This document shows positions 1 through 7,665 of a DNA stretch of 8,059 nt, piece after piece. This DNA is from Flavobacteriaceae bacterium (GTDB lineage Bacteria > Bacteroidota > Bacteroidia > Flavobacteriales > Flavobacteriaceae). The position numbers were made by a program, and so were the translations under genes. The notes below the pieces were generated by a model. It was not told the origin of the DNA, did not search any database, and saw only the letters and a list, made by a program, of their open reading frames with translations. The stretch spans positions 1 to 8,059 of the forward strand of contig NZQO01000115.1 of assembly GCA_002693605.1 (NCBI GenBank), in the 5' to 3' direction. The stretch's first letter is position 1. Each line of letters begins with the position of its first letter.

Positions 1-326
1 ACAAACCATTCATGCATCTGCTGGTATATGATACGCTTACGAAAGCAGACTATACCTTCATAAAAGAAAAAATGCAAGACTACCAGACACCTATTGGAAT
101 GCTCGTTGAGTTAAAAGAGTATGAAGGGTTCACATTTCAGGCATTCTGGGAAGATATTAAAATAGGTTTTAACAGTTATAACAAGTTCAAAAAAATCGCA
201 ATTGTTACCGACAAGCACATTAAAGCGCTTATAAAAACCGCCGACTTTTTAACACCTGGCCTTGATTTTAAGGTATTCCTTCAAACAGAAAGAGCAGAAG
301 CAATCCATTGGATAGAAAATAAATAA
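1..326 (+). CDS. SpoIIAA-like (STAS/CRAL-TRIO-type) protein, 5' end outside the window
   Basis: The reading frame is open to the left edge (first full codon at position 3). The first ATG at 12 is probably internal: the stretch LVYDTLTKADY aligns with the first beta-strand and helix of SpoIIAA-like proteins (Pfam SpoIIAA-like/DUF3478 type, about 115-125 aa), so roughly 8-15 N-terminal residues seem to be missing. Family hallmarks visible are the acidic strand followed by EGFTFQAFWED, then KKIAIVTDK, and a C-terminal strand FKVFLQTERAEAIHWI. These are small cytoplasmic single-domain proteins with the STAS/CRAL-TRIO fold. Their biochemical role is not settled; lipid or hydrophobic ligand binding has been proposed from the fold, and a sigma-factor role should not be assumed from the name. 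The stop codon lies 12 bp before the dehydrogenase start, so the two are probably co-transcribed. Family assignment is from recognised motifs; function is unknown. Confidence 0.8.
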   Translation, partial: KPFMHLLVYDTLTKADYTFIKEKMQDYQTPIGMLVELKEYEGFTFQAFWEDIKIGFNSYNKFKKIAIVTDKHIKALIKTADFLTPGLDFKVFLQTERAEAIHWIENK

Positions 327-338
327 CACTAAAATATT

Positions 339-1100
339 ATGGAAAATTTCAAAAATAAAACGGTACTAATAACAGGTGGTTCAGGTGGAATAGGAACAGC
401 TACCGCTAAAGAGTTTTTATTATTAGGTGCAAACGTAATGCTAGTAGACATCAATAAAGAAGCTCTAAAAAAGACTGTTTCAGATTTAAGTACCGATAAA
501 GTAGCCTTCGTAACCGCAGATGTACGAGATGATGAACAAGTAAAAAACTACGTAGATAAAACATTACAAACTTTTGGCAGTATAGATGTGTTCTTTAATA
601 ACGCTGGCATTGAAGGAGAAGTAAAACCATTAGATCAATATTCGCTAGACGTGTTTAACCGCGTAATAGATGTTAATATTAGAGGTGTTTATTTGGGGCT
701 GCGCCACGTGTTTCCTGCTATGAAAAAGAACGGTGGAAGTATTATAATTACCTCATCTGTTGCCGGCCTTTCGGGCACTGCCCATGTGTTGCCGTATGTA
801 ACGAGCAAACATGCAGTAATTGGTATGATGCGTACCGCAGCTCTGGAAGGTGCACCTTATAACATTCGAGTAAATACGGTTAATCCTTCGCCAGTCAACA
901 ACCGTATGATGCGCTCCTTAGAAGCAGGATTTGCACCAGAGGACGCCACAGGAGCCCAGAAAAATTTTGAGGCGGGAATTCCCTTAGGTCGCTATGCAAG
1001 CAACCAAGATGTTACAAATATGGTTGTATTTTTAGCCAGTGAAAATAGCAGCTTCATAACGGGAAGCGTGTATTCTGTCGATGGCGGGATGACAGCTTAA
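339..1100 (+). CDS. Short-chain dehydrogenase/reductase (classical SDR, probably NAD-dependent)
   Basis: A 253-residue cytoplasmic oxidoreductase, the normal length for classical SDRs, with every core motif intact. The N-terminal Rossmann nucleotide site is TGGSGGIG (residues 12-19). Asp37 at the end of the second strand favours NAD(H) over NADP(H). DV at 61-62 is the adenine-ring contact. NNAG is at 87-90, followed by the active-site tetrad Asn113, Ser140, Tyr153 and Lys157 (YxxxK). The usual PG segment after strand six reads NPSP (182-185), and the C-terminus ends with the typical SVDGGMTA. The substrate cannot be read from the sequence; such genes are often loosely annotated as 3-oxoacyl-ACP reductase or glucose 1-dehydrogenase. 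The ATG at 339 follows an AT-rich leader without a clear Shine-Dalgarno, as is common in Bacteroidota. The gene sits 12 bp after the SpoIIAA-like gene and 37 bp before the OMPLA-like gene, so an operon is likely. Confidence 0.96.
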   Translation: MENFKNKTVLITGGSGGIGTATAKEFLLLGANVMLVDINKEALKKTVSDLSTDKVAFVTADVRDDEQVKNYVDKTLQTFGSIDVFFNNAGIEGEVKPLDQYSLDVFNRVIDVNIRGVYLGLRHVFPAMKKNGGSIIITSSVAGLSGTAHVLPYVTSKHAVIGMMRTAALEGAPYNIRVNTVNPSPVNNRMMRSLEAGFAPEDATGAQKNFEAGIPLGRYASNQDVTNMVVFLASENSSFITGSVYSVDGGMTA

Positions 1101-1137
1101 CCTTACTAATGTTAAACAGAAAACATTTTTATAGATA

Positions 1138-2034
1138 ATGAGAAAAGTCCTGTTCTTGCTGCTTATTATTGGGGTATTCCAAAATATTCATAGTCAACAG
1201 GTAGAAGATAGTAGTATTAGTTTTGATTTGAACACAATTGCCCAATTGCATCAGGAAAACAGTTATATAACCTTTCCCTTAGATGTAGGTAATCTAGCAG
1301 ATTTATGGTTTGAGGGGAATGTGAGTCCCATTTTTACAATTAGAAACAATAAGAAGTCGAGATTGCTTACCGTCCTAACCCCACAAGTGGTTTTCCGGAT
1401 GTATCAAGAAAGTTCCTTTCCCGTGCGTACACCAAGTTATATACCTCAACTTAAAGTGTATTATGTTACCGGAAACAAACAGGGAAATCATAACATTTCG
1501 TTGTTCGCAAGATTAGCCCATCACAGCAACGGTCAAGAAAACGATTTTTATAATAAGGATGGAAGTATTAATACTCATTCGGGCAATTTTTCTACTAATT
1601 TTTTGGAATTAGGTCTTATCGACACCCATTTTTGGTCTCGTACGCGTAATGCGCAATATTTTAAATCTTCTTTGGAAATACATCCTAAAGCTTGGATGGA
1701 AGATGAGCTGGTAGGGCAGTATAGTCGAGTGCGGTGGCATAACCAGTTTGGTGTAAATAATCTGGGGTGGGATTTAAAACCAATAAAAAACAGACTTGCC
1801 AGTATATCACTAAAGATTAAAACCACTTGGATGTTCGACAATTTTAACGGCTTCACCACCTTCGATATTAAGCGATTGAATTTTGCTGCCACCGTGTTTT
1901 ACCATCCGTCCTTTTTAGAAGATGTAGGCTTTTTTGCCAAATTTTATCACGGTTTTGATTATTACAACATTTATTTTAATGAGCGAATTGACGTACTCCG
2001 GTTTGGACTTATGATAGAGACATTAAAGTTTTGA
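1138..2034 (+). CDS. Putative outer-membrane phospholipase A1 (OMPLA/PldA-like beta-barrel)
   Basis: A 298-residue exported protein. Residues 1-19 form a typical signal peptide (MRK, then a run of Leu/Ile), with cleavage likely near HS-Q. The rest has alternating polar/hydrophobic strands of an outer-membrane barrel and ends in an aromatic residue (LKF). It resembles phospholipase A1. His128-His-Ser130-Asn-Gly matches the HxSNG active-site motif, where E. coli OMPLA has His142 and Ser144. Asn154 in STNF is a candidate for the third catalytic residue (Asn156). KAWMEDE (184-190) corresponds to the KPW segment, and the last strands (FYHGFDYYNIYFN, 269-281, then RFGLM) parallel the YSGYGESLIDYNFN region of the E. 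coli enzyme. Length also fits (E. coli precursor about 289 aa). The family hydrolyses acyl chains of phospholipids that reach the outer leaflet. A cardiolipin synthase follows after 33 bp. Divergence is high, so the enzymatic assignment is probable rather than certain; the outer-membrane barrel assignment is safer. Confidence 0.72.
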   Translation: MRKVLFLLLIIGVFQNIHSQQVEDSSISFDLNTIAQLHQENSYITFPLDVGNLADLWFEGNVSPIFTIRNNKKSRLLTVLTPQVVFRMYQESSFPVRTPSYIPQLKVYYVTGNKQGNHNISLFARLAHHSNGQENDFYNKDGSINTHSGNFSTNFLELGLIDTHFWSRTRNAQYFKSSLEIHPKAWMEDELVGQYSRVRWHNQFGVNNLGWDLKPIKNRLASISLKIKTTWMFDNFNGFTTFDIKRLNFAATVFYHPSFLEDVGFFAKFYHGFDYYNIYFNERIDVLRFGLMIETLKF

Positions 2035-2067
2035 TTTATATATTTTCAGATCGGTCTTTATTTAATA

Positions 2068-3513
2068 ATGGTCCAAGAAATCTTCTATTACATTTTATTA
2101 ATTGTACACGGCATCATTAATCTTGTCGCGTTTTACTACCTGCTCAAAGAAGGCAATAAACCATACCGCATCTGGGCGTGGATGATGACCATTTTTGCCA
2201 TTCCTGCAATTGGCGGTATTTTATTTTTTGTATTCGGCCTTAATCGTAAAAAAAATAAACTGTTCAATCAAAAAGCGCTTGTGGATGAGCAACAGATTAA
2301 AACATTTTTAAAAGAATATGCTACACACATTCAGCCATATCAACTAGAAGACACACAAATAAATTCCCGATATGGGAAGCTGGTTAGGTACCTGACCAAT
2401 GCCAACAAAATTCCGTTGGCGCATCATAATAAAGTAACCGTTCTCGACGATGGAGAGGAAACCTTCCGCGCCATTTTTAAAGCATGCGAAGCTGCCAACC
2501 ATTCAATCTTCATCCAATATTACATTTTTGAACATGGAACATTAGCAGATAGATTTCTTCAATTATTTAAGAAAAAGCGCGCACAAGGCGTTACAATAAA
2601 ATTTCTGTACGACGGTTTGGGCAGTTGGTCTCTGAAAAATAGCTATCGGAAAAAAATGACAGCCGCTGGTATTGCGGTTCAAGCTTTTTTACCCGTTAAA
2701 CTGGCAGCACTCGCCAAAACAAATTACCGCAATCACAGAAAGATAATTATTATAGATGAGAAAATAGCCTTTACCGGTGGTATAAATGTAGATGACAAAT
2801 ACATAAATGGCGATCCTATATTAGGACACTGGACTGATATGCACCTACAGTTGGAGGGAATGGCCGTTAATTTTTTAAAATTCGTTTTTCATAACGATTG
2901 GTATTTTGCCAGTGGGGAAAATCTATTTACCGGCAATGCCTTAAGACCCCTGGGCAAAATAGGGAAATCACCGGTACAGATTGTTTCCAGTGGTCCTGAT
3001 TCCAAATTTGAAACCATCCTTAATGAATACCTGTATCTTATCAATCACGCAGAACGTTACGTGTATATTGCAAACCCGTACCTCATTCCAACGCAATCGC
3101 TCAAAGAAGCGCTACAGGCTAGTGCGTTAAGTGGTGTTGACGTGCGTATTATTGTTCCAAAAAATTCCGATTCCCTGTTAGTAAAGTGGACGGTCCAATC
3201 GTATTTTGAACCGTTACTGGAAAGTGGGGTAAAAATCTATCTGTTCGAACCAGGATTTTTACATTCAAAAATTATCTTGAGTGATGATTTGGTTTACTCT
3301 ATAGGCACAGCCAATCTTGACATACGCAGTTTCGAACAAAATTTTGAAGTAAATGCTTTGATCTATGACGCAGATGTTACCCAAAAAGTACGCCAGCGCT
3401 TTATAAAATATCAGCAATCAAGTACCTTAGTAAGGTTTGAAACTTTCAGGCAACGCGGTAGACTATCGCGTATGTTAGAAAGTTTGTGTCGTTTGTTAAG
3501 CCCCATAACATAA
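2068..3513 (+). CDS. cls: Cardiolipin synthase (phospholipase D superfamily)
   Basis: A 481-residue inner-membrane enzyme that joins two phosphatidylglycerol molecules (or PG with another phospholipid donor) into cardiolipin. Two transmembrane helices occupy about residues 4-26 and 35-57, the usual bacterial Cls N-terminus (phospholipase D nuclease, N-terminal type). They are followed by two PLD domains. The first HKD motif is NHRKIIIID (His223, Lys225, Asp230) followed by TGGINV; the second is LHSKIILSD (His399, Lys401, Asp406) followed by GTANLDIRSF. Both are intact, as is QYYIFEHG (150-157), typical of the family. Length matches ClsA-type enzymes (about 480 aa). It is the last gene of the + strand block, 33 bp after the OMPLA-like gene. 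The pairing suggests one gene consumes and the other makes or remodels envelope phospholipid, which is an inference from adjacency. Confidence 0.95.
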   Translation: MVQEIFYYILLIVHGIINLVAFYYLLKEGNKPYRIWAWMMTIFAIPAIGGILFFVFGLNRKKNKLFNQKALVDEQQIKTFLKEYATHIQPYQLEDTQINSRYGKLVRYLTNANKIPLAHHNKVTVLDDGEETFRAIFKACEAANHSIFIQYYIFEHGTLADRFLQLFKKKRAQGVTIKFLYDGLGSWSLKNSYRKKMTAAGIAVQAFLPVKLAALAKTNYRNHRKIIIIDEKIAFTGGINVDDKYINGDPILGHWTDMHLQLEGMAVNFLKFVFHNDWYFASGENLFTGNALRPLGKIGKSPVQIVSSGPDSKFETILNEYLYLINHAERYVYIANPYLIPTQSLKEALQASALSGVDVRIIVPKNSDSLLVKWTVQSYFEPLLESGVKIYLFEPGFLHSKIILSDDLVYSIGTANLDIRSFEQNFEVNALIYDADVTQKVRQRFIKYQQSSTLVRFETFRQRGRLSRMLESLCRLLSPIT

Positions 3514-3670: not shown

Positions 3671-4744
3671 TTACAAGTAGGCTGAATGTGCAATCTTCAT
3701 TAGCTGGTCGCTATCCAGTATTTCAATTTCCTTGCCGTCTATACCTACAAGCCCCTCTTCGCGAAGTTGTGACAATGCCCTTATGGCGGTTTCCTTCGCC
3801 GCCCCTATAGTGCCGGCCAAATCGTCTCTGCTAATGGTGATTTTACCCGTACCCGTAGCTGGATCTTTCTCCTTTTCGTACAGATCGACCAGCAGTTTTG
3901 CGGTACGCTGTCGTACCGATGCAAATGCCATAGCTGCTAATTGTGTTTCACGTTCTTTGAGGTTGTTAGACAACATGGTAATAAACGTGTTAGAGATATT
4001 CTTGCTGCCAAATATTAAGGTGGTAAAATCATTTTTGGGTATTTTACAAATTTCAGCATCTTCGAGCACTATTGCCGTATCTGTATATTTTGACGCTTCT
4101 GTAAATAGCGGAATAAATCCTAAAAAATCGCCCGGACCATAAAACCCGGTAACGAACTCTTTACCATCATCAGTAGTTTTGAAGGTTTTTACCTTTCCGC
4201 TCTCGATAAAATAGAGTTGGGTAGCATAGCGTCCTTCCCGGAACAACTCGCTTTTTTTTGCGTAACGCTCCACCCGCCTATCATTTGAAAGCTTCTTTAC
4301 GTCATCGTATTGTGAGACCTCTTCAAAAAATTGGTTGATACCGTTTACGCTCTTGCTGAATTCCTGCCGAAGCCGTTCGTTTTTTTCCAGTCGCGTTTCA
4401 ATGGCATCGAGTAAATCTGCTTCTTCAAAGGGTTTGGTGAGATAGTCATCGGCACCCAGGTTCATCCCCTTCCGCAGTTCCTCTTTTTCAGATTTCGCTG
4501 TTAGGAAGATAAAGGGAATATGATGGGTTTCAGGGTTTTTGTTTACTATGTGCAGTACGCCGTAACCATCTAGCTCTGGCATCATAATATCGCACACGAT
4601 AATATCGGGACGAAAAGATTTTGCCATGGCCACACCCACTTTTCCGTTTTCGGCAGTCTTCACCTCAAAATCTGCCAACATCAAGATTTCAGCTGTGGTC
4701 TCCCTAATATCCTGATTATCTTCTATTAATAATATTTTTTTCAT
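3671..4744 (-). CDS. Response regulator: receiver domain fused to CRP/FNR-type transcription factor
   Basis: A 357-residue cytoplasmic regulator. Residues 1-122 are a complete receiver domain: acidic pocket Glu8/Asp9, phospho-acceptor Asp52 in CDIMMPELDG, switch Thr82, and Lys104 in KPF. A helical linker (about 118-155) leads to a cyclic-nucleotide-binding-type beta-roll (about 155-245, with SGKV at 182-185 and YGPGDFLG at 202-209). A long dimerisation helix follows (about 247-275), then a Crp-type winged helix-turn-helix (about 277-345; DDLAGTIGAAKETAIRAL, 307-324). In the recognition helix Lys317, Glu318 and Arg322 sit where CRP has Arg180, Glu181 and Arg185. The beta-roll lacks the GE...RSA phosphate-binding residues of cAMP-binding CRP, so phosphorylation of Asp52 is the likelier switch. 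It starts 6 bp after the stop of the LOV histidine kinase, its presumed partner. Target promoters are unknown. Confidence 0.94.
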   Translation of the reverse strand: MKKILLIEDNQDIRETTAEILMLADFEVKTAENGKVGVAMAKSFRPDIIVCDIMMPELDGYGVLHIVNKNPETHHIPFIFLTAKSEKEELRKGMNLGADDYLTKPFEEADLLDAIETRLEKNERLRQEFSKSVNGINQFFEEVSQYDDVKKLSNDRRVERYAKKSELFREGRYATQLYFIESGKVKTFKTTDDGKEFVTGFYGPGDFLGFIPLFTEASKYTDTAIVLEDAEICKIPKNDFTTLIFGSKNISNTFITMLSNNLKERETQLAAMAFASVRQRTAKLLVDLYEKEKDPATGTGKITISRDDLAGTIGAAKETAIRALSQLREEGLVGIDGKEIEILDSDQLMKIAHSAYL

Positions 4745-4750
4745 TATTTG

Positions 4751-7612
4751 CTATTTTGGCAAGGTAACGGTAAAAGTAGACCCCACGTTGAGCTGGCTTG
4801 TAAAAGACAAGGTACCATCCATTAATTCGACATATTTTTTTACAATGTGCAGCCCCAGTCCCGTACCCTGAATATTGGTTGCGTTCTGTGCCCTAAAGAA
4901 ACGTTCAAAAAGTTTTGCCTGCTCGTTCTTCGGAATACCTATGCCCGTATCTGTCACCGCAATGCTAAGTGTATTGCCGTGCTCGGCGATTGTAACATTA
5001 ATAGTTTCGTGCTCCTGCGAATATTTTATGGCGTTTGAAACCAGATTCTGGATAATATGGCGCAGCAGCTTTTCATCGACGAACGCGTAAATAGCTATTT
5101 TTTCCGAAGTTAACCGAAGTTTCTGCCCTTCCTTTTTATTGTTCTCGAACTCCTCCAACAAGTCTCTGCAATGGGCCACTACGTCGAGATGCTGCGAATG
5201 GAAGCTGATTTTTCCCTCCTCCAGTTTTCCCAAAGAAAGGAAATCATTTAAAATGGACACTAGGTTGCGCACATTTGTTTTAATGCGCGCCGCGTAATTA
5301 ACGCGTTTTTCCTCATTACCCGGCTTATTTAGTTTTTCAATGAGCGTGGCCGAAGACAATATGGTGCTAAGCGGTGTCCTGAACTCGTGCGAGGCCATAG
5401 AGAGGAAGCGCGACTTAAGCTCATTAAGTTCCTTCTCCTTGGCAAGCGCGTTGAGCATCTCCCTTTCGGTATTTTTCCGTTCTGTGATGTTCGAGTAGAC
5501 AAACAGTGCCTGGGTAGCCTTCTTCAGGTCATTGTAAAGCGGGATTGAATTTAGCGTATAGGTTATACCGTTCATTTCAATTTCTTCGGAAAGATGGTTG
5601 CCGGCTAGGGTCGCCCGTACATTTTTCTTAATGCGTTCCAGGCGGTCTGGGGCAAACTGAGTAATCGAATCGACCGATTGACTTTCAATTTTTTCCTTCT
5701 GAAGTCCAAATCTTCTTAAATCTTCCCCGTGCAGGGAAATCACCTTGTAATCTTGGTCGATCACGGCAATCATTCCATTGGGAAAATGCTGCGCGATGGC
5801 CAGGTACAATGCTTGGCTCGTCAAGGCCTTGAGTTCGGCCAATTTTGTCTCTTCAATCTGAATTTCCAATTGGCTATTAACCTGCATCAGCTTATCGATA
5901 CTCTCGCTAAGCTCGTTCGTGCGATCCCGCACCTTGTCCTCTAGCTTATCTGCATAGCTTTTTAGTTCCTGTTGGTTGTTTTGCAGTTGCGCATTGGTTT
6001 CATGCTGCTCGAGGGCAATGGCCATGAGCTTGCTGGCATCTACGATTATCTTCAACTCATGGGGAGAAGGTTTCTTTGGCTTTTCATGGTAAACCGCGAA
6101 GGTGCCCAGTACGTGTTTCGTAGACGATAAAATGGGAAGCGACCAACAGGCACGAAGGTTGTTTGCCAAAGCAAGGTCTTTATGATCCCTCCACAAATCG
6201 CTATGTTCAATATCTGACACGATAACCTCTTCCTTCAAAAACGCGGCAGTGCCACATGAGCCTACCGTTTTGCCAATGGCAATACCTTCAATTCTGTCTG
6301 TAAATGTCTTTGGTATCTTGGGTGCCGACAGCTTGTGCAAAGTATTCTTGGTTCTATCGAGAGCTAGTAGAGAAACCATCGCCTGGGGCATTTGGTTTTC
6401 AACGGTGGCCACCATATGGTTGGCAATTTTATTGAGTGCTTGGTGTTTTGCAATCATCTCGAGTGCTCTACTGGATTGTTCCTTTAGAAACTCATCTTTT
6501 TTACGGGAGGTAATATCATTTTGTACGCCAATGAAGTGCGTGACCGTTCCCGTACCATTTTTAATTGGAGTTATGGTAAGTTGATTCCAGAATAGCGATC
6601 CGTCTTTTTTGTAATTTCGCAATTCGACCTCGCAAGGCGCACCTTTATCTATGGCTCTTCGCAAAACTTCAATCTCCTTTTGCTGACGGTCGTTTTTTTG
6701 AAGGAACCTACAGTTTGCCCCAGAGACTTCCTCCTTGGTATAGCCCGTCATTTTTTCGAATGCCTCGTTTGCATAGATAATGGGCATGTCCTTCTGCAGC
6801 GCATCGACTATTACGATGGCATTGACGGCCGACTCAAGCGCCCTATCTTTCAAAAAGAGGTTTTTTTCGGCCTCCATATAATCTGATGTATCGCGAACCA
6901 CCACGAGAAATTCACCATCGCCTTTAGGCACGATCCTAGACTCATAGAATTTTACAGCGCCGTTGCGCTCATAGGAATATTGCAACAACTCACTCTGTTG
7001 GGTTCTAGCTACCGTATCGAAGGTGTGCTTAACTTTGGGCAACAAATCTGGGGGGATGTCATTGTAAATGCTCTTACCAACCAATTGTTCCTGCATGACC
7101 CGCAGAATTTCGAGGTTAGAAGAATGGACATCGATATATATTCGTTCTTTGCTCACCACGAAAATGAGATCTGGTAAGGCTCGCAAAATGGCGCTGTTTT
7201 TTTCGAGACTTTGCTTTAACTTAAGCTCAGTGTCCGTCCTCTTGGAAATATCCATGACGTAGGCGACCACCATGTGCCGGTTTTCTATGAACGAGGGACT
7301 TAAACTGATTTCAAGCGGGAATTTTGAGCCATCTTTTTTTAATCCCCAGAGGTCGAGGTTACTACCCATAGTGCGCACCTCCGCATTCTTTGCGAAATAT
7401 CTACGATGGGTCGCGTGTATATTTCGAAGCTGTTGGGGAATAAGCACTTCAATTTTCCTACCGTTGAGTTCATCCTTTTCGTAACCGAACATGGCGGTAA
7501 GCGACGTGTTCGTCTTAACGATAGCCCCTTCTTGGTCCGCAACCAGGATTCCCTCGACCGAGGCTTCAAAAATGCCCCTGAAAAAAGTTTCTTCTTCTAT
7601 AATCCGTTCCAT
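4751..7612 (-). CDS. LOV-containing multi-sensor histidine kinase (PAS-PAS-LOV-GAF-PAS-HisKA-HATPase)
   Basis: A 953-residue sensor kinase without signal peptide or membrane helices, so probably cytoplasmic. Approximate order: PAS (9-124), PAS (137-247), LOV-type PAS (255-370), GAF (395-535, with GSCGTAA and RACWSLPI), coiled coil (538-598, with LEDKVRDRTNEL), PAS (600-710), HisKA, HATPase_c. The LOV domain carries ANCRFLQ with photoactive Cys301, plus Arg302, Arg318, Asn333, Asn343 and Gln364, the flavin-binding set of phototropins and YtvA. The HisKA H-box is SHEFRTPLS with phospho-acceptor His742. The ATPase has the N-box NLVSNAIKYS (Asn856, Asn860), G1 DTGIGIP (888-894), F-box FERFF and G2 GTGLGL. 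There is no receiver domain, so phosphate should pass to the REC-CRP protein 6 bp downstream. I chose ATG at 7612; an in-frame TTG one codon earlier (7615) would add one residue. Blue-light or flavin-redox sensing is predicted; ligands of the other PAS and GAF domains are unknown. Confidence 0.95.
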   Translation of the reverse strand: MERIIEEETFFRGIFEASVEGILVADQEGAIVKTNTSLTAMFGYEKDELNGRKIEVLIPQQLRNIHATHRRYFAKNAEVRTMGSNLDLWGLKKDGSKFPLEISLSPSFIENRHMVVAYVMDISKRTDTELKLKQSLEKNSAILRALPDLIFVVSKERIYIDVHSSNLEILRVMQEQLVGKSIYNDIPPDLLPKVKHTFDTVARTQQSELLQYSYERNGAVKFYESRIVPKGDGEFLVVVRDTSDYMEAEKNLFLKDRALESAVNAIVIVDALQKDMPIIYANEAFEKMTGYTKEEVSGANCRFLQKNDRQQKEIEVLRRAIDKGAPCEVELRNYKKDGSLFWNQLTITPIKNGTGTVTHFIGVQNDITSRKKDEFLKEQSSRALEMIAKHQALNKIANHMVATVENQMPQAMVSLLALDRTKNTLHKLSAPKIPKTFTDRIEGIAIGKTVGSCGTAAFLKEEVIVSDIEHSDLWRDHKDLALANNLRACWSLPILSSTKHVLGTFAVYHEKPKKPSPHELKIIVDASKLMAIALEQHETNAQLQNNQQELKSYADKLEDKVRDRTNELSESIDKLMQVNSQLEIQIEETKLAELKALTSQALYLAIAQHFPNGMIAVIDQDYKVISLHGEDLRRFGLQKEKIESQSVDSITQFAPDRLERIKKNVRATLAGNHLSEEIEMNGITYTLNSIPLYNDLKKATQALFVYSNITERKNTEREMLNALAKEKELNELKSRFLSMASHEFRTPLSTILSSATLIEKLNKPGNEEKRVNYAARIKTNVRNLVSILNDFLSLGKLEEGKISFHSQHLDVVAHCRDLLEEFENNKKEGQKLRLTSEKIAIYAFVDEKLLRHIIQNLVSNAIKYSQEHETINVTIAEHGNTLSIAVTDTGIGIPKNEQAKLFERFFRAQNATNIQGTGLGLHIVKKYVELMDGTLSFTSQLNVGSTFTVTLPK

Positions 7613-7665
7613 CAAAAAAATAATTGAATGCTAGTTCCCATTCAGAAAATTAAGATTGTAGTGCT

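Follow-up and report, generated by a model that had tools for sequence, protein, structure and literature searches.

Does the sensor kinase encoded on a flavobacterial contig carry a true LOV domain among its PAS domains, and if so, into which cellular programme would blue light be fed? The window (i.e., the whole stretch of DNA analysed, 8,059 bases) is one entire contig of a draft genome of 2.19 Mb with an estimated completeness of 68%. The original prediction saw in its kinase gene a light-sensing LOV domain that routine annotation would overlook. We examined this domain, its relatives, the adjacent regulator and the DNA that the regulator might bind.

Architecture of the kinase

The open reading frame of the kinase is intact under either start codon (TTG or ATG). 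Residues are counted here from the TTG, hence the numbers of the original prediction, which started at the ATG, are one lower. The domains follow each other in the order PAS1 - PAS2 - LOV - GAF - long helix - PAS - HisKA - HATPase_c (Table 1), with the long helix predicted at residues 518-596, ahead of the C-terminal PAS, in a full-length model whose pTM of 0.34 makes the order of the domains usable but not their arrangement. The bounds of PAS2 and of the C-terminal PAS were set by eye from this model. By uniting LOV, HisKA and HATPase_c in a single protein, the kinase falls within the LOV histidine kinases in their broad definition.

Table 1. Features of the analysed stretch (positions within the 8,059 bases; residues counted from the TTG start)
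Feature	Position	Strand	Details
Response regulator REC - cNMP_binding - HTH_Crp	3671..4744	-	357 aa; REC 4-116, Asp52; Pfam
LOV sensor histidine kinase gene	4751..7615	-	954 aa from TTG; 953 aa from ATG at 7612
HATPase_c	4757..5077	-	residues 847-953; Pfam
HisKA	5213..5416	-	residues 734-801; phospho-acceptor H743 at 5387-5389
C-terminal PAS	5486..5812	-	~residues 602-710; full-length model
GAF domain	6008..6436	-	residues 394-536; Pfam
LOV domain	6506..6847	-	residues 257-370; sequence and fold matches
Gln365, predicted signalling glutamine	6521..6523	-	alignment of relatives
Asn344, flavin pocket	6584..6586	-	alignment of relatives
Asn334, flavin pocket	6614..6616	-	alignment of relatives
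Cys302, predicted flavin-adduct cysteine	6710..6712	-	
PAS2, no cofactor inferred	6881..7213	-	~residues 135-245; PAS-like strands/helices in full-length model
PAS1, heme-PAS-like (DosP/FixL)	7217..7597	-	residues 7-133
His67 of PAS1, aligned to DosP residue 77 (heme ligand)	7415..7417	-	
YceI-family gene, cut by contig end	7666..8058	-	

Identity of the LOV domain

The span originally assigned to the LOV domain (6503-6850) takes in the domain as delimited here, and the seven residues named as its signature (Cys301, Arg302, Gln305, Arg318, Asn333, Asn343 and Gln364 in ATG numbering; 302, 303, 306, 319, 334, 344 and 365 from the TTG) are all present. Counted from the cysteine, the second arginine stands at +17, the two asparagines at +32 and +42 and the glutamine at +63. 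The corresponding residues of YtvA (C62, N94, N104, Q123), as given in Yee 2015 (PMC4682037), lie at +32, +42 and +61; both asparagine spacings thus coincide, as stated in the original prediction, and the proposed two-residue insertion before the glutamine is borne out because this residue sits at +61 in YtvA and at +63 in the kinase. Taken together, the motif G-x-N-C-R-F-L-Q, the adduct cysteine, the two pocket asparagines and the glutamine occur at LOV spacing.

A phmmer search of the domain against the PDB retrieved 159 sequences at E <= 1e-3 (best 2.8e-33), and the top 60 of these include phototropin, short-LOV, YtvA and Brucella LOV-HK entries. In contrast, PAS1 of the same kinase matches DosP and FixL, and reaches short-LOV and YtvA entries only at 1e-4 to 1e-3, hence such LOV matches are not to be expected of an arbitrary PAS domain. 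The nearest relatives by sequence and by fold are LOV photoreceptors, not other PAS domains, in line with the claim of a complete LOV rather than a generic PAS; Pfam reports just PAS families over the region, as had been expected of a routine annotation. In the proposed search with LOV-specific profiles, the NCBIfam YtvA family model (NF052652) does match residues 257-387, with its best stretch in the LOV part, while the whole protein stays at 169.5 bits, below the curated cut-off of 250, and so lies outside that family. The model for the Brucella-type blue-light histidine kinase (NF052306) gives 151.9 bits, far from its curated threshold of 450. Within the draft genome (68% complete) the domain in the window is the single match to LOV at E <= 1e-3.

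On these sequence and fold matches, residues 257-370 are a LOV domain, which would likely bind flavin and form a cysteine adduct in blue light. The reading of the gene as a LOV photoreceptor kinase is supported, with the light response standing as a prediction.

Presence and absence of the cysteine among relatives

A protein search yielded 1,798 homologs, and the 120 best of them were taken further. The tree of 128 kinases (125 different) holds 118 of these, the window protein and nine loci; P0104, with just 81 aligned LOV columns, and P0003, which is the window protein itself, were left out. The LOV cysteine is kept in 113 of the 128 rows and missing in 15, a proportion that is not a family frequency since it stems from the best 120 of 1,798 homologs. 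The pocket is far more constant: Asn334, Asn344 and Gln365 are 96-99% conserved among the 113 cysteine-bearing rows and retained by all 15 rows that lack the cysteine. Besides the cysteine itself (113/113 to 0/15), the largest drop in the latter concerns Arg303 (84% to 20%), followed by Leu332 (86% to 40%). At least eight changes of the cysteine state are needed in the tree, and supported branches force six of these; the count does not distinguish gains from losses. Cysteine and Arg303 are both kept by the window protein and by the four rows nearest to it (three distinct sequences), and their sister P0007 (Winogradskyella bathintestinalis) has a tryptophan at the cysteine position. The 29 LOV loci recovered from genomes all carry the cysteine; being the best matches to a cysteine-bearing query, they are uninformative on how often it is absent.

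Since LOV proteins without the cysteine have been shown to signal by flavin reduction (Yee 2015, PMC4682037), the relatives probably include redox-type forms of this sensor. The window domain might itself be mainly a flavin redox sensor, for which chemical or photo-reduction of the flavin, rather than the adduct, would be the physiological signal and the cysteine dispensable. The published precedent, the repeated changes in the cysteine with an invariably kept pocket, and the microaerobic-type genes around the kinase/regulator pair in relatives all speak for it. We nevertheless regard it as unlikely for the window protein, which shares cysteine and Arg303 with its nearest rows, in a tree where 113 of 128 kinases hold on to the cysteine.

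The signalling glutamine varies too: P0066, P0068, P0072, P0120, L128, L130, L133, L137, L139 and L143 keep the cysteine and carry Leu, Ser or His at the glutamine position. LOV signalling without this glutamine has reportedly been described (PMC9098866).

The kinase tree, built from the window, 11 proteins out of the homolog search and all loci with enough kinase columns, suggested two independent insertions of the LOV domain, and a single LOV clade was rejected when LOV-less kin were excluded from it (p 6e-5). We do not claim two insertions, because one clade that admits six LOV-less relatives is not rejected and has an even higher likelihood (p 0.79; this clade was picked after viewing the tree). 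A single gain followed by losses may therefore have occurred instead. Six flavobacterial kinases of the same group (L023, L024, L025, L026, L028 and L033) yielded no LOV domain, and some of them may have lost it as a whole (L025 begins at a contig end).

PAS1 and a possible oxygen input

The top PDB row for PAS1 is a histidine kinase PAS (10jx, 1.7e-13), with DosP (3.6e-13) and FixL (1.3e-11) among its matches. His67 occupies the proximal-ligand position of DosP (residue 77), and His77 is the axial heme ligand of that protein (PMC4263535). Binding of heme or O2 by PAS1 is uncertain, because the alignment places Leu87 where FixL and DosP have their distal arginine and Ser85 where DosP has Met95. 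Where PAS1 is recognisable, His67 is kept in 48 of 49 LOV-less loci (21 others are without such a PAS1), in 80 of the 101 listed LOV homologs (17 others are without PAS1) and in 14 of 14 compact LOV kinases (described below). Its lower retention in the listed LOV homologs than in the LOV-less loci also speaks against heme or O2 binding by PAS1. The full FixL-type motif, distal arginine included, occurs in 7 of the best 80 loci. We also considered a coupled absence of the LOV cysteine and His67, as the histidine is present in 81 of 94 rows with the cysteine vs 3 of 13 cysteine-less rows with PAS1; this coupling is not claimed because the independent events are few: supported branches give four pairs, with p 0.5 in a sign test.

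The REC-CRP partner

The gene directly downstream of the kinase, six bases from its stop, encodes a receiver with phospho-acceptor aspartate, a cNMP_binding fold and HTH_Crp, i.e., a REC-CRP regulator. A scan of genome contigs found at least 583 related kinase loci, and at 74 of the best 80 that were kept a REC-CRP gene lies directly downstream. The other six are loci cut by contig ends (L037, L046, L081), matches to the receiver part only (L045, L060) and one match elsewhere in the locus (L054). At our chosen cut-off nine of these 80 loci possess a LOV domain, and all nine are kinase/REC-CRP pairs.

The association extends to the family. Taking E below 1e-30 as a strong LOV locus, a set of 149 Flavobacteriaceae genomes showed the regulator within 3 kb downstream of all 24 strong loci and of none of the four weak LOV-like matches. 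LOV matches (E <= 1e-20) were recorded in 59 of the 397 Flavobacteriaceae genomes sampled (55 of them strong, as judged from the rows) and the regulator in 66 of 149; many pairs must therefore be without LOV. A compact form of the LOV kinase (~630 aa, no GAF) makes up 14 of the 29 LOV loci, and the start of a regulator follows in 13 of these 14, none being found in the remaining 375 bases of L145.

The same genome contains a second, LOV-less kinase/REC-CRP pair (L152, G000:C46, 1901-8163), located beside four USP-like genes; its kinase, of 410 aa, has a PAS1-type PAS with the histidine and no LOV. Such a pair lends some substance to the idea that the LOV kinase signals elsewhere and that the adjacent REC-CRP serves the second kinase, which we nonetheless hold to be very improbable: each kinase has its own regulator beside it, and the window regulator groups (51-80% identity) with ten others, nine of them adjacent to a strong LOV match (the one in G078 is not), whereas the remaining regulators, that of the second pair included, share 39-46% identity with it.

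Gene neighbourhood

The YceI-family gene upstream of the kinase probably shares its transcript, the promoter of which probably lies off the contig. The plus strand of the window holds a SpoIIAA-like frame running off the contig start, an SDR gene, a gene for an unnamed 298-aa protein and a cardiolipin synthase gene. This order (window 3-3513) is kept in L015, a 71% relative, with two extras: a 255-aa gene between the 298-aa protein and the cardiolipin synthase, and a patatin-like gene after the regulator. The SpoIIAA-like part in L015 forms the end of a 331-aa frame, hence the contig start may truncate the frame in the window.

Among the neighbours at the best 80 loci and the window (family names assigned by reading the sequences) we counted 27 USP-type sequences, 18 cation ATPases of cbb3-cluster type, 13-14 of the cbb3 oxidase-type parts, and 10 each of HemN and Hsp20 type. 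The kinase/REC-CRP pair, mostly in its LOV-less form, recurs across Bacteroidota amid genes for cbb3 oxidase, HemN and universal stress proteins.

A candidate site for the regulator

A dyad search in the intergenic DNA of 15 flavobacterial loci placed ATGAC-N4-GTCAT on top (10 seen, 0.06 expected), and the same dyad again led in the other 66 loci, with runs of N left out (16 seen, 0.13 expected). Relaxed to WTGAY-N4-RTCAW, the motif occurs at 96 sites in intergenic DNA (156 kb) vs 43 in coding DNA (1,280 kb). Its excess is confined to spacer 4 (2-10 intergenic sites with other spacers), and among 24 half-site orders the runner-up reached 24. Of the two nearest genes behind each intergenic site, the kinase accounts for 22, the USP type for 9, the ccoN, ccoG, HemN and Hsp20 types for 3 each and others for 65, many of them at a distance of 50-100 bp. 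From these patterns, the palindrome ATGAY-N4-RTCAT is probably the site of the REC-CRP regulator.

The window holds no exact ATGAY-N4-RTCAT site, and two matches with one mismatch allowed vs 4.4 expected by chance; in L015 a motif site lies 80 bp upstream of the YceI start. The window's own genome shows a small excess (33 motif matches vs 20 for the control). We inspected 15 of these 33 (13 stretches), which by ORF calls divide into eight intergenic and seven coding. The intergenic sites precede a USP gene, an S30AE ribosome-hibernation-type gene followed by USP, a SpoIIAA-like gene and a glutamyl-tRNA reductase gene (Pfam), and another falls between NadA and an Rrf2 regulator (Pfam); of the eight, one (L114) is on the foreign-looking contig C69 and another (L110) is not followed by any gene start that could be seen. 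The genes of L114 and L119 (both G000:C69) gave the impression of being foreign to a flavobacterium, possibly a contamination of the draft genome.

Across Flavobacteriaceae, genomes that have the regulator do not differ in motif density from those that lack it (p 0.29); only the ratio of the motif to a reversed-pattern control differs between them (p 0.0016), and the site may therefore also serve other CRP/FNR proteins. We thus do not take the motif as proof of a regulon, supported as it is near the loci and weak at genome scale.

Relation to known systems

With YtvA of Bacillus subtilis, PF5-LOV, PpSB2-LOV and MrLOVe (Meiothermus) the window domain has its signature, spacing (+32, +42) and fold in common; it differs from YtvA in the two extra residues before the glutamine, and from YtvA and short LOV proteins in its partners within the protein, which are PAS, GAF and kinase domains rather than STAS or no partner at all. 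Brucella LOV-HK (BluLightHisKinLov) and other LOV histidine kinases share the union of LOV and histidine kinase, whereas the window kinase has HisKA/HATPase_c, PAS1-PAS2 before and GAF-PAS after the LOV domain, and a REC-CRP partner.

FixJ and FixK carry the receiver part and the CRP-type part in separate proteins. The FixL-FixJ-FixK system resembles the present one in its heme-PAS-like sensor, its CRP/FNR-type output and its cbb3-type oxidase genes (here near LOV-less relatives), and is unlike it in that the two parts are fused in a single REC-CRP protein and PAS1 of the window is without the distal arginine. YF1, an engineered LOV-FixL kinase that works with FixJ (PMC6798134), likewise places LOV on the kinase of an oxygen-sensor-like system. 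The window kinase differs in being natural, in having the heme-PAS-like domain in the same protein as LOV and in facing REC-CRP rather than FixJ; by analogy, it is best read as a natural counterpart of YF1. Natural cysteine-less LOV domains (BAT of haloarchaea, Yee 2015) have the pocket residues without the cysteine, as do the 15 of 128 relatives; unlike in BAT, the cysteine comes and goes here within one mostly cysteine-bearing kinase family, and the window protein has it.

LOV kinases, cysteine-less LOV domains and heme-PAS kinases are thus each already known, and flavin photoreceptors are not new to the phylum, because PMC4844311 has a Bacteroidetes/Chlorobi bar among the phyla with LOV or BLUF. 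A literature search that was short on subscription papers (and so weak evidence of absence) found no LOV histidine kinase tied to a CRP-type regulator in flavobacteria, and the consulted sections of three reviews (PMC6798134, PMC12627116, PMC9614035) hold nothing relevant on Bacteroidetes or CRP. For the combination of these known LOV and heme-PAS kinase parts with a REC-CRP partner, the literature searched gave no example.

Proposed light and oxygen signalling

Our main reading, to which we assign a probability of roughly 0.7, is that the LOV domain binds flavin, that its cysteine adduct alters the phosphorylation of REC-CRP, and that flavobacteria have put LOV onto a heme-PAS oxygen/redox two-component system. 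In darkness the flavin would be oxidised and the kinase in one activity state. Blue light would form the Cys302 adduct and turn Gln365, which in turn would alter the helices through GAF and PAS up to H743; the phosphate flow to Asp52 of REC-CRP would change, and the regulator would bind its palindromes. PAS1 may set the gain according to the oxygen or redox state, such that a single kinase would read both light and oxygen/redox conditions. We infer an oxygen/redox two-component system as the ancestral state, to which flavobacteria would have added LOV, because PAS1 has the DosP-like histidine and cbb3, HemN and universal stress genes adjoin the relatives.

That the domain is an ordinary non-flavin PAS with a chance or vestigial LOV-like motif, as Pfam's PAS-only annotation might suggest, is scarcely credible against key residues in register, PDB LOV matches down to 2.8e-33, a LOV fold and strong conservation across 128 relatives.

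A more detailed scenario is put forward only tentatively: LOV would have been fitted into a FixL-like kinase with a FixJ-/FixK-like fused regulator, the heme PAS reading oxygen, LOV reading blue light and both steering a microaerobic/stress regulon via ATGAY-N4-RTCAT, while some relatives dropped the cysteine and so turned a light sensor into a redox sensor.

Judging from the encoded domains and their neighbours, light would likely tune a low-oxygen and stress response, with both light and oxygen sensing predicted. If true, this would be a concrete light input into the low-oxygen/stress programme of a large family (strong LOV in 55 of 397 sampled genomes), and the repeated absence of the cysteine from a conserved pocket would make the question 'light or redox sensor?' testable on natural siblings.
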